From the NCBI GenBank assembly GCA_016218705.1, contig JACRDC010000058.1, positions 62,001 to 126,000 of the forward strand: a DNA stretch of 64,000 bases. Direction: 5' to 3'. Each line of letters begins with the position of its first letter. Position 1 is the first letter of the stretch. The position numbers were made by a program, and so were the translations under genes. Origin of the DNA: Desulfarculus sp. GTDB taxonomy: Bacteria; Desulfobacterota; Desulfarculia; Desulfarculales; Desulfarculaceae. Positions 23,258-51,231 of the stretch are shown here, one piece after another. The notes under the pieces were generated by a model. That model did not search any database and was not told where the DNA came from. It saw only the letters and a program-made list of their open reading frames with translations.

Positions 23258-23408
23258 ATGCGGGCCATGGATTTCACCCCAAGCAAACTGCGTTTGCTTG
23301 GGGACCCCGAAGATAGCCCGCCGGGCGCGTTAGCGCCCGGGAGGCCGGGCAAAACCGCGCTTTTGCCCGGCCGATAGGCGCTCAAAGCCAAGGATGGCCT
23401 TGAGCGCC
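23258..23408 (-). repeat. multi-hairpin intergenic repeat, copy A
   Basis: On the minus strand, beginning 8 bases after the hypE stop, there are four successive hairpins. Stem 1 is GGCGCTCAA/TTGAGCGCC. Stem 2 is GGCCGGGCAAAA/TTTTGCCCGGCC. Stem 3 is CCGGGCGC/GCGCCCGG. Stem 4 is CCCCAAGCAAAC/GTTTGCTTGGGG. The 88-base core (23316-23403) matches copy B (34575-34662) at 81 positions by eye, with changes in stem 1 that preserve pairing. A motif TCCATGGCCCGCAT follows stem 4. Confidence 0.8.
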
Positions 23409-23415
23409 GTATCTA

Positions 23416-24426
23416 TCAGCAGATTCTGGGCAAGGGCTCGCCGCTGAGCATGTCCAGGATGCGTCCGCCGCCCACGCGGGTGTGCATCCACACCCGGCCC
23501 GCCGGGGCCTCCTTGACCTGGCCGATGATGGCCGCGTTGCCGCCCAGGGGGTGGGCGCGCAGGGCCGTTAGCGCCGCCTGGGCCTGCCCGCCCTGCACGA
23601 TGCAGATCAGCTTGCCCTCGTTGGCCAGGTAGAAGGGGTCCAGGCCCAGGAGCTCGCACACGCCCTGCACCACCGGGTCCACGGGGATGGCGCCTTCTTG
23701 CAGCTCGATGGCCACCCGGCTGGTGGCGGCGATCTCGTTCAAGGTGGTGGCCAGGCCGCCCCGGGTGGGGTCGCGCAAGACATGCACGCCATCGCAGGCG
23801 GCCAGCAGGTCGGCCACCAGGCCGTTCAGGGACGCCGAGTCGCTCTTGAGCGGTGCGTCCAGGTTGAGGCCCTCGCGCTGGGCCAGGATGGTCACGCCGT
23901 GGTCGCCCATGCTGCCCGACACCAGGACCGCGTCACCGGGCCGGGCCAGATGGGCGCCCAGGTCCAGGCCCTCGGGGATGACGCCGATGCCGCAGGTGTT
24001 GATGAATATCTTGTCGGCCTGGCCGCGCCCCACCACCTTGGTGTCGCCGGCCACGATGACCACCCCGGCCTCCGTGGCCGCCCGGGCCATGGACTCCACG
24101 ATGGTGGTCAGGAGGGCGATGGACAGGCCCTCCTCCAGCACGAAGCCCACGGTGAGCCACAGGGGTTTTGCGCCGCGCATGCACACGTCGTTGACCGTGC
24201 CGTGCACGGCCAGGGAGCCGATGTTGCCGCCGGGGAAGACCACGGGGTCCACCACAAAGGTGTCGGTGCTGATGGACAGACGCCCGGGCGGGGGGGTGAG
24301 CACCGCGGCGTCGTCCAGGGGGTCCAGCAGCGGGTTGCTGAAGCGGCCGGCAAAGATGCGCCCCACCAGTTCGTGGCTGGCGCGGCCGCCGGCGCCGTGG
24401 TCCAAGAGGATGGTATCCGAGGCCAT
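23416..24426 (-). CDS. hypE: hydrogenase maturation protein HypE
   Basis: A 336-residue PurM-like protein. HypE takes the carbamoyl group from HypF onto its C-terminal cysteine and dehydrates it with ATP to a thiocyanate, the source of the CN ligands of the [NiFe] active site. The N-terminal LLDHGAGGRASHELV, the Asp-rich nucleotide site DDAAVLTPP and NDVCMRGAKPLWL are characteristic. The protein ends in PRIC, the essential C-terminal Cys336. It is the last gene of the cluster, 14 bases after hypD. Confidence 0.95.
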   Translation of the reverse strand: MASDTILLDHGAGGRASHELVGRIFAGRFSNPLLDPLDDAAVLTPPPGRLSISTDTFVVDPVVFPGGNIGSLAVHGTVNDVCMRGAKPLWLTVGFVLEEGLSIALLTTIVESMARAATEAGVVIVAGDTKVVGRGQADKIFINTCGIGVIPEGLDLGAHLARPGDAVLVSGSMGDHGVTILAQREGLNLDAPLKSDSASLNGLVADLLAACDGVHVLRDPTRGGLATTLNEIAATSRVAIELQEGAIPVDPVVQGVCELLGLDPFYLANEGKLICIVQGGQAQAALTALRAHPLGGNAAIIGQVKEAPAGRVWMHTRVGGGRILDMLSGEPLPRIC

Positions 24427-31534: not shown

Positions 31535-31613
31535 CGGCGTGCCCACCGCTGGGCGTATACGGGCCGGGGCCGGTGCCCGGCCAGGCGCATACGGGGGGTG
31601 GCAGCAAAAAAAG

Positions 31614-31700
31614 ACGGGCGGGGATAAACCCCGCCCCTACATCCAGAAAAGCCGTTGGTTACAACTTCTTAATGTAGGGGCGGGGTTTACCCCCGCCCGT
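31614..31700. repeat. inverted pair of a 29-base internally palindromic repeat
   Basis: The left arm (31614-31642) and right arm (31672-31700) are reverse complements with one mismatch in 29. Each arm is itself near-palindromic (CGGGCGGGG...CCCCGCCCG). The 29-base spacer shows no coding. It sits between the convergent PBP and CBS genes, with T/A runs outside each arm, so it may act as a bidirectional terminator. Related single copies occur near 37.6, 37.7 and 51.1 kb. Confidence 0.85.
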
Positions 31701-31747
31701 GTATTTACTCGCGGATCAGGACACCCAGCGGCGGATTTGCCCGGCCT

Positions 31748-32605: not shown

Positions 32606-34561
32606 ATGAACGGCGGCGACAAATCAAGGGCGGACCCGGAGCGCCTGGCCTTGTGGCTGGGGCCAGAAAGCCCCTTGGCCCGGGAGCTTAAGGGATTCGC
32701 CCCCCGCCCAGGGCAGTTGGACATGGCTTTAGCCGTGGCCCGCGCCCTGGCCCAGGAGACTCCCTTGTTGGTGGAGGCCGGCACGGGCACCGGCAAGACC
32801 CTGGCCTACCTGTTGCCGGCGCTCATGAGCGGCCTCAAGCTGGTGGTGAGCACGGGCACCCGCACCCTGCAGGACCAGATAAGCAGCAAGGAGCTGCCCC
32901 TGCTGAAACGCAGCCTGGCGCCCCAGTTGCGTTGGGCGGTGCTCAAGGGCCGCGCCAACTACCTGTGCCGCCGGCGCTTCGACGCCCTGGCCCGCCAGCC
33001 CGACCTAGCCCTGCCCGGCGTGGCCGGCGCCCTGGCCATCCTGCGGCCCTGGAGCCGCGCCACCCAGGGCGGCGACCTGGACGAGGTGCGCGGCCAGGGT
33101 CTGAGCCAGGCGCTCATCGGCGAGATCACCAGCAACGGCGAGCAGTGCCTGGGCGGCCGCTGCCCCCAGCGCGAGGATTGCTTTTTGCTGGAAGCCCGCC
33201 GCCGGGCCGCCGAGGCCGACCTGGTGGTGGTGAACCATCACCTGTTCCTGGCCGACCTGGCCTTGAAGGCCGCCGGCCATGGCGAGGCCCTGCCCCGCTA
33301 CCAGGGCGTGGTCTTTGATGAGGCCCACCAGGTACCCGAGGTGGCCACCCAGGTCTTCGGGGTAAGCGTCAGCTCCCAGCGTCTGGCGGTGCTGCTGAAA
33401 GACGTGGGGCGCGAGGTCCCCAGGGCCGCCCTGCTGCCACCCCTGAGCGCCTGCCAGGCGGCGGGGGAGCGCCTGTTCGCCAGCCTGGGCCGCCTGGCCG
33501 GCCCCCAGGGCGGCAGCCTGGGCCTTACCCCGGCTTTCCTGAAGCAGTTGGCCGCGCCGGGCCAAGCCCTGCGCCAGGCACTGGAAGGCCTGGCCGAGGC
33601 CCTGGGCAAGAGCGAGGAGGAGGAAGTCCTGGCGGGACGCGCCCAGACCCTGGCCCTGGACCTGGCCAGCGTGGCCCTGCCGGTGCCCGGCCAGAGCGTG
33701 GCCTGGGCCCAGACCCGGGGCCGCGGGGCCTCCCTAAACCTCTCGCCGGTGGAGGTGGGCCCCCACCTGGAGCACGCCTTGTACCAGCACCTGGGCCGCC
33801 TGGTCTTCACCAGCGCCACCCTGGCCCCCCTGGGCGATCTGGAGCCCCTGCGCCAACGCCTGGGCCTGCCCGCCGAGACGGCCAAGCTGGTCAAGGCCTC
33901 GCCCTTTGACCTGGCCAGCCAGGCCCTGCTCTACGTGCCCCGCCAGATGCCCCCACCCCAGGCCCCGGGCTTTGCCCAGGCCGTGGCCCGGCAACTGGAG
34001 GACATCCTAAGCCTCAGCCAGGGGCGGGCCTTCGTGCTCTTCACCACCCATCGCAACCTGGAACTGGTCAGCGGCCTCTTGAACGGCCGCCTGCCCTATA
34101 CCTGCCTGGTGCAGGGCCAGGCGCCGCGCATGGAGTTGCTGAAGCGCTTCGTGGAGCAAAGCCCCTGCGTGCTCTTCGCCACGGCCAGCTTCTGGCAGGG
34201 GGTGGACGTGCCCGGCCCGGCCCTGTCGGCGGTGATCGTGGACAAGCTGCCCTTTGCCCCGCCCGACGACCCCTTGCTGGCCGCCCGCGTGCAGCGCCTG
34301 GAGCAGGAGGGGCAGAGCGGTTTCCACGGCCTGATGCTGCCCGAGGCCATCTTGAGCCTCAAGCAGGGCCTGGGCCGGCTGTTGCGCACGCCCACCGACC
34401 GGGGGCTGTTGGCCGTCTTGGACGTGCGCCTGACCAGCCAGGGCTATGGCCGCCGCTTCCTCAAGGCCCTGGCCCCGGTGCCCCTGACCCACGACTTGGA
34501 CCAGGTGCGCCGCTTCTTCGCCGCCGAGGAGAAAGAGCACCCCGGCCGGACCGCCGCCTGA
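32606..34561 (+). CDS. ATP-dependent DNA helicase, DinG/YoaA family
   Basis: A 651-residue superfamily 2, XPD-like helicase. Walker A is EAGTGTGKT (Lys64) and the DEAH box is VVFDEAHQVPE. Between them lie the cysteines of a probable [4Fe-4S] domain (YLCRRRF, then EQCLGGRCPQREDCF). The C-terminal half contains LVFTSATLAP, the region FVLFTTHRNLELVSG and motif VI LKQGLGRLLRTPTDRGL. The family unwinds DNA 5' to 3' and resolves R-loops or damaged forks. There is no fused exonuclease domain. The start is the ATG at 32606, 47 bases after the predicted transcription start. Confidence 0.9.
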   Translation: MNGGDKSRADPERLALWLGPESPLARELKGFAPRPGQLDMALAVARALAQETPLLVEAGTGTGKTLAYLLPALMSGLKLVVSTGTRTLQDQISSKELPLLKRSLAPQLRWAVLKGRANYLCRRRFDALARQPDLALPGVAGALAILRPWSRATQGGDLDEVRGQGLSQALIGEITSNGEQCLGGRCPQREDCFLLEARRRAAEADLVVVNHHLFLADLALKAAGHGEALPRYQGVVFDEAHQVPEVATQVFGVSVSSQRLAVLLKDVGREVPRAALLPPLSACQAAGERLFASLGRLAGPQGGSLGLTPAFLKQLAAPGQALRQALEGLAEALGKSEEEEVLAGRAQTLALDLASVALPVPGQSVAWAQTRGRGASLNLSPVEVGPHLEHALYQHLGRLVFTSATLAPLGDLEPLRQRLGLPAETAKLVKASPFDLASQALLYVPRQMPPPQAPGFAQAVARQLEDILSLSQGRAFVLFTTHRNLELVSGLLNGRLPYTCLVQGQAPRMELLKRFVEQSPCVLFATASFWQGVDVPGPALSAVIVDKLPFAPPDDPLLAARVQRLEQEGQSGFHGLMLPEAILSLKQGLGRLLRTPTDRGLLAVLDVRLTSQGYGRRFLKALAPVPLTHDLDQVRRFFAAEEKEHPGRTAA

Positions 34562-34570
34562 TACCAATAT

Positions 34571-34729
34571 GCAATCAAGGCCATCCATGGCTTTGATTGC
34601 TGATCGGCCGGGCAAAAGCGTGGTTTTGCCCGGCCTCCCGGGCGCTTACGCGCCCGGCGGGCCGTCCATGGCCCGCATGCCAAGTTGCGATCAAACTATT
34701 CGTTTGATCGCAAGTTGGTATGAAGCCGC
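34571..34729 (+). repeat. multi-hairpin intergenic repeat, copy B
   Basis: This begins about 10 bases after the helicase stop. Stem 1 GCAATCAA/TTGATTGC encloses the same loop region as copy A. Stems 2 and 3 are nearly identical to copy A. A TCCATGGCCCGCAT motif comes next. Stem 4 is a longer hairpin (TTGCGATCAAAC/GTTTGATCGCAA) flanked by CCAA and TTGG. Stem 1 differs from copy A on both arms so as to keep pairing. It lies between convergent genes. Confidence 0.8.
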
Positions 34730-37708: not shown

Positions 37709-37737
37709 TACAAGGGGCGGGGTTTATCCCCGCCCGT
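37709..37737 (+). repeat. copy of the 29-base palindromic repeat
   Basis: The last 24 bases, GGGGCGGGGTTTATCCCC plus GCCCGT, are identical to the reverse complement of the left arm at 31614-31642. A T-rich stretch (TTTTATCC) follows. Confidence 0.75.
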
Positions 37738-37924
37738 GCATTTTATCCTCGGGTGGTCTGGACAACAACTGGCCGCCGTCCGGGTGCCGAAGGCACGAAG
37801 GGTGTCTTGCCTGGCCTGCCGTGAGATCAATGGGTAATCTTCAACCCGCCCTTTTCCAATAGCGCATCGCCCCAACCCGCCCTGGAAGCAGGCCTTGCCT
37901 CGGGTCTCCCACAAGAGAGATTGG

Positions 37925-42692: not shown

Positions 42693-42695
42693 GCG

Positions 42696-42743
42696 GGGCA
42701 TGGACGGCCCGCCAAGAGGAGAAAGCCATGGATGGCTTTCTCC
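42696..42743 (-). repeat. truncated copy C of the multi-hairpin repeat
   Basis: Read on the minus strand it starts with stem GGAGAAAGCCAT/ATGGCTTTCTCC (42743-42732 with 42729-42718), sharing the GCCATCCATGGC centre of copy B. It continues directly into GGCGGGCCGTCCATGCCCCGCC. The two middle hairpins of copies A and B are missing. The outer stem is again different but fully paired. Confidence 0.65.
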
Positions 42744-51111: not shown

Positions 51112-51140
51112 ATGTGGGGGCGGGGGTTGTCCTCGCCCGG
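51112..51140 (+). repeat. diverged copy of the 29-base palindromic repeat
   Basis: It matches the 31.6-kb left-arm sequence (reverse complement) at 24 of 29 positions by eye. It is also preceded by the same GGCTTTTCTNGATGT flank, showing that the shared unit is longer than the palindrome. Confidence 0.65.
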
Positions 51141-51231
51141 CTTTTGTATTTTGATGAAATTATCTAGCCCTGACAGCGCGGGCAGGTGGAGGCCATGGCG
51201 CCGTCCTTTCTGGCCTGGGGGAGGCTGTCCC

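Follow-up and report, generated by a model that had tools for sequence, protein, structure and literature searches.

Hairpin-rich MITE copies in Desulfarculus and their shared ends with IS630-like elements

Hairpin elements of the window

The stretch of DNA analyzed here, referred to as the window, comprises 64,000 nucleotides of a Desulfarculus sp. contig (JACRDC010000058.1, positions 62,001 to 126,000). It contains two hairpin-rich elements of about 150 bases, copy A behind a hypE-like (AIRS/AIRS_C) gene and copy B behind a helicase gene, each in the sense of the preceding gene. Their 88-base cores are identical at 81 of 88 positions, and in hairpin 1 the arms of the two copies have been altered together, as reported in a preliminary description of this DNA. 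Both fold well beyond shuffled sequences, with z values of -12.1 for copy B and -10.6 for copy A.

Copy B is an intact 159-bp miniature element (MITE) of the short form. The positions given in the preliminary description hold, but the limits of the element had to be refined: its exact span is 34562-34720 on the plus strand, with TGA duplicated on either side, at 34559-34561 and 34721-34723. The left duplication is at the same time the stop codon of the helicase gene (32606-34561). The ends follow the family consensus TACCAANNTGCNATCAAA, the left terminal inverted repeat (TACCAATATGCAATCAAG) occupying 34562-34579 and the right one 34703-34720 on the minus strand. Between these limits lie five hairpins on the plus strand: hairpin 1 (34571-34600) and hairpin 3 (34639-34656), both defined by folding and covariation; hairpin 2 (34606-34635, GGCCGGGCAAAA..TTTTGCCCGGCC), defined by folding and pattern search; hairpin 4 (34657-34676, GGGCC..GGCCC); and hairpin 5 (34678-34720), the right terminal hairpin, which itself consists of paired inverted TIR-like arms.

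Copy A (minus strand, 23258-23415, the far limit of ~23258 being approximate) is a decayed copy of the long form, in which the loop of hairpin 4 holds an additional hairpin. It has a degenerate left end, lacks the right terminal hairpin, and starts directly after the TGA stop codon of the hypE-like gene (23416-23418, minus strand). Hairpin 1, a GGCGCTCAA..TTGAGCGCC variant, is found at 23377-23408, hairpin 2 at 23343-23372, hairpin 3 at 23322-23339 and the extra nested hairpin at 23277-23303, all on the minus strand. The fourth hairpins of the two copies had been regarded as counterparts, but they are not homologous. That of copy A (CCCCAAGCAAAC...GTTTGCTTGGGG) nests in the loop of a GGGC...GCCC hairpin, while that of copy B is the right terminal hairpin, and full-length long copies have both. 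Since copy A is a long form that lacks the right terminal hairpin, the two are different modules.

A free-standing pair of hairpins related to hairpins 4 and 1 starts right behind a TAG stop codon at 42693-42743 (plus strand). It carries neither terminal inverted repeats nor a target duplication, and is probably what had been called copy C. Palindromic repeats of another family (GGGGCGGGGTTTAYCCCCGCCC), which has no relation to the MITE, lie in the window at 31608-31706, 37713-37744 and 51116-51146; similar sequence also flanks several of the MITE copies (e.g., L014, L008 and L084 ~1547-1640).

Repeat family and insertion sites

The source genome (G000) is a 4.2-Mb draft in 126 contigs. Searching it with copy B gave 40 scored copies of 76-98% identity from 231 first-look candidates, and copy A as query gave another set of copies, at 81-93% identity. 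The hairpin-2 pattern occurs at no fewer than 107 places, compared with 0 for a reversed control, and the end pattern at 110+112 places, so the repeat extends far beyond the copies known at the outset. Contigs of this genome often end within MITE copies (e.g., C109, C63, C105, C46, C49, C41 and C60). The repeat therefore fragments the assembly, and the copy number is a lower bound. Relatives of the family are present in four other genomes of the same genus, with strong matches in G001, G002 and G003 and one weak match in G005; none was found outside the genus among the other genomes searched.

When examined with their flanks, the copies share TACCAATATGCAATCAAAG at one end and TACCAAGTTGCGATCAAAC at the opposite end. 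Full elements start with TACCAANNTGCNATCAAA and finish in its inverted repeat, giving terminal inverted repeats (TIRs) of ~18 bp. The size classes are 43/48, 78, 121, 158-162, 198-204, 239 and 324 bp, the main ones being ~159 and ~200 bp, and no transposase gene is present in any of these 43-324-bp copies. Hairpins nested in or added between other hairpins are seen at L110:5222-5419 and L094:11250-11573. Because the 324-bp element keeps equal TCA flanks, modules seem to be added within the mobile unit.

Single-hairpin forms of 43/48 bp (L078:9219-9261, L093:17874-17916, L080:1768-1815, L091:1254-1301 and L104:5531-5578) differ from the larger elements in that their TNA flanks are mismatched in 5 of 6 cases. 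Crossing-over between the palindromic ends of opposite copies, with deletion of the intervening DNA, would explain such flanks. One short-form copy near a contig end (L077:10850-10986) seems to be interrupted by what looks, on visual inspection, like an IS3-type insertion. The MITE insertions of L100, L023, L027, L028 and L110 share a longer repeat (AGCCCGGCCATTCTTAGGGCACCGGCAGGGGGC...) around them, which itself recurs in the genome.

The target duplications were assessed in the 58 elements that measure 70 bp or more and are bordered by TNA at both ends. The TNA is identical on the two sides in 54 of them, compared with 27% by chance (p about 1e-26), and the middle base of the identical triplets is A in 19, T in 14, C in 11 and G in 10. 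CTNAG flanks are favored, with 20/57 compared to 5% of background sites. In the sister species G003, empty sites with a single target are found for three intact copies (GACCAAGGAG, CTGTAACCC and AACTAGGGC), and the site of copy A is empty in G003, G001 and G004. Together with the copy number and the inverted-repeat ends, the duplications and empty sites bear out the earlier suggestion of a mobile palindromic element.

Genes were predicted with a simple codon-model caller. Although coding sequence accounts for 84% of the TNA sites, not one of the 64 mapped insertions disrupts a gene. Thirteen of the 64 sit precisely at a TAA or TGA stop codon, which is preserved by the duplication; this is roughly the share that random insertion into non-coding DNA would give. 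Targeting of stop codons is not claimed on this basis: 13/58 compares with ~14% expected from the site preference (p=0.057), so that stop codons are tolerated without being clearly targeted. Convergent gene contexts are enriched (19/46 vs 20% expected, p=0.001); insertions in divergent contexts are fewer than expected (4/46, p=0.02). In tandem contexts, 11 copies lie along the direction of transcription and 12 against it, i.e., there is no preference of orientation. That copies lie just after a gene thus follows from the fact that only insertions outside coding sequence are tolerated.

Matching ends on IS630-like elements

The exact end pattern TNATACCAANNTGCNATCAAAW is present in at least 116 stretches of GTDB species genomes, where a rough uniform-base estimate gives ~15 for random sequence. 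Among the matches listed, the hosts include cyanobacteria, Acidobacteria, Bacteroidetes, Desulfovibrio and others, and a second end lies within 330 bp in 56; 47 of these 56 MITE-sized pairs have equal TNA flanks. One match from another phylum, L158, is a 1137-bp insertion sequence with the same ends, TCA/TCA flanks and two ORFs. The second ORF matches the model NF033545 (transpos_IS630) with 124 bits, for a cut-off of 100, and PF13358 with 78.8 bits, also above its cut-off. In two Desulfovibrio contigs (L163 and L219), homologous transposase sequence stops 16 bp from the same TIR. The class of the source organism also contains complete elements of ~1.1-1.4 kb whose ends (TTCYAANTTGC) are related and whose TNA flanks are mostly equal. 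The MITEs, like the majority of the complete IS630-like elements examined, duplicate 3-bp TNA and not TA. Nothing in common was seen between the hairpin core and the IS630-like insertion sequences beyond the ends. Among the papers searched, none was found to describe this end sequence.

Searches of the source genome found no intact transposase gene of the IS630-like (PF13358), PF01609, PF13340 or PF13359 type, and no autonomous element was seen among the examined stretches that have TIR matches but no MITE interior. An IS630-like fragment in G002 (L265) was considered as a partner and rejected, having no TIR. The same-family match L271 is cut by the contig and shows no TIR, and the IS5-like loci of G002 have no TACCAA end. 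The transposase partner is therefore inferred from other genomes; the autonomous partner may have been lost or lie inside an assembly gap. The same ends and TNA duplications recur in many phyla, IS630-like elements included, which makes an IS630-like transposase acting in trans the best candidate for the mover.

Competing explanations and known systems

The preliminary description had taken the conserved structure to point to a selected RNA as one of two possibilities. In this rival explanation, the repeats would be a 3'-UTR or small RNA selected for a host function, with stem changes that compensate one another. The strong folding and the location behind genes speak for such an RNA, and the covariation between lineages is real: in a set of 20 short copies, taken from four species, changes on both sides are seen at 13 of 58 base pairs (34 cells), values that none of 500 shuffles reach, and slid partners give 0-3 pairs. 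However, substitutions private to single copies are not depleted in stems, where 43 of 56 are found with 73% of the columns being stem (p=0.65), and 27 of 43 in a second count with 75% stem columns. One-sided stem changes mostly break the pair (38/58). It follows that pairing is kept in the spreading lineages and not in the resident copies, and the random private mutations together with the unbiased orientation reveal no selected RNA function after insertion. The insertions are moreover lineage-specific, and no Rfam covariance model matched the repeats, only a tRNA being matched in the window. A selected host RNA is accordingly very unlikely. Compensatory double changes do exceed expectation in a loose count (6 vs 0.16 expected), but the excess shrinks in a strict singleton test of private doubles (2 vs 0.13, p=0.006; long form, 1 vs 0.10, p=0.09), so that copying from arm to arm is only suggested. 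The small excess of private doubles could reflect template switching, which has been described for RNA hairpins (PMC8794818).

Two other kinds of mobility were considered. Some IS5-family elements also use 3-bp TNA targets, which the TNA duplication in CTNAG found here resembles. IS5-like genes are present in G002, and the inverted repeats of L096 are flanked by CTAA/CTTA-like sequence. The ends of L096 are AGAACTTATCCG rather than TACCAA, though, PF01609, PF13340 and PF13359 were not found in the source genome, and the matching ends elsewhere belong to IS630-like genes, which renders mobilization by an IS5-group transposase improbable. The high copy number and the extragenic palindromes would also fit REP/BIME-like repeats mobilized by a RAYT (Y1 tyrosine transposase), but the terminal inverted repeats, the identical 3-bp target duplications and the empty sites are features of DDE-type transposition, and the ends match IS630-like elements; of the explanations considered, we find this one the hardest to credit.

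The mobility of the copies and the match of their ends to an unusual IS630-like group point to a mobile parasite and not to a conserved RNA. We consider it highly probable that the copies are a non-autonomous DNA transposon, most likely moved in trans by an IS630-like (DDE) transposase and drifting after insertion. The MITE consists of modular hairpins between ~18-bp terminal inverted repeats; in the proposed mechanism, the transposase would recognize the TACCAANNTGCNATCAAA ends and insert the element at TNA, preferably CTNAG, duplicating three bases. The insertions that survive are those that break no gene, being intergenic, especially between convergent genes, or placed exactly at a TAA or TGA stop that the duplication restores. 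Resident copies then drift with no visible selection on structure, and the stem pairing between lineages may persist because transposition requires it or because one arm serves as template for the other when the DNA is replicated.

The repeats adjoining gene ends are explained by TNA insertion, which can strike a stop codon harmlessly. Two points are of wider interest, namely that TNA is duplicated and that covariation and selection on resident copies are decoupled. Covariation among repeat copies alone is no proof of a functional RNA, as is seen here from stems that covary across lineages while single copies drift unconstrained. An IS630-like group with an atypical 3-bp duplication and related MITEs in many phyla would widen the target choice described for the superfamily. 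More tentatively, and with the odds somewhat against it, an undescribed IS630-like group that crosses phyla and duplicates TNA instead of TA may have given rise to MITEs in cyanobacteria, Acidobacteria, Bacteroidetes and Deltaproteobacteria. The MITE of this genus would then have grown by gaining hairpin modules, and the pairing of their stems would be upheld by the copying of one arm onto the other at replication, not by any use of the RNA by the host.

The repeats have the characters of a MITE: a length below ~400 bp with no transposase gene, TIRs, a target duplication and many dispersed copies. Ends shared with an autonomous element are provided by L158 in another phylum, the source genome having yielded none. 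We thus describe a new MITE family that is of an ordinary kind and belongs to an atypical IS630-like group. It resembles the IS630 family (NF033545; PF13358) in that its ends are also those of an L158-type element, the transposase of which matches the IS630 models. The usual description of IS630 elements includes a 2-bp TA duplication, for which reason the TNA duplication is atypical and the group is called a variant; the window elements, in addition, carry no transposase. REP/BIME repeats with RAYT are likewise extragenic palindromes of high copy number, but the window family differs from them in its terminal inverted repeats, target duplications and empty sites. As in hairpins maintained by template switching (PMC8794818), compensatory stem doubles possibly arise from single templated events; that process is described for RNA genes, whereas here it is suggested for a mobile DNA family.

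The closest counterparts by description are Chunjie of Geobacter uraniireducens and the QMITEs of Coxiella, which show comparable size variation and decay (review PMC10969869). They too are small non-coding elements with inverted-repeat ends and target duplications, present in tens to >100 mostly intergenic copies that include size variants and decayed forms. Compared with these descriptions, the window family differs in its string of GC-rich hairpin modules, which number up to five or more and in part nest in the loops of others, and in having a 3-bp TNA duplication and the ends of an IS630-like group.
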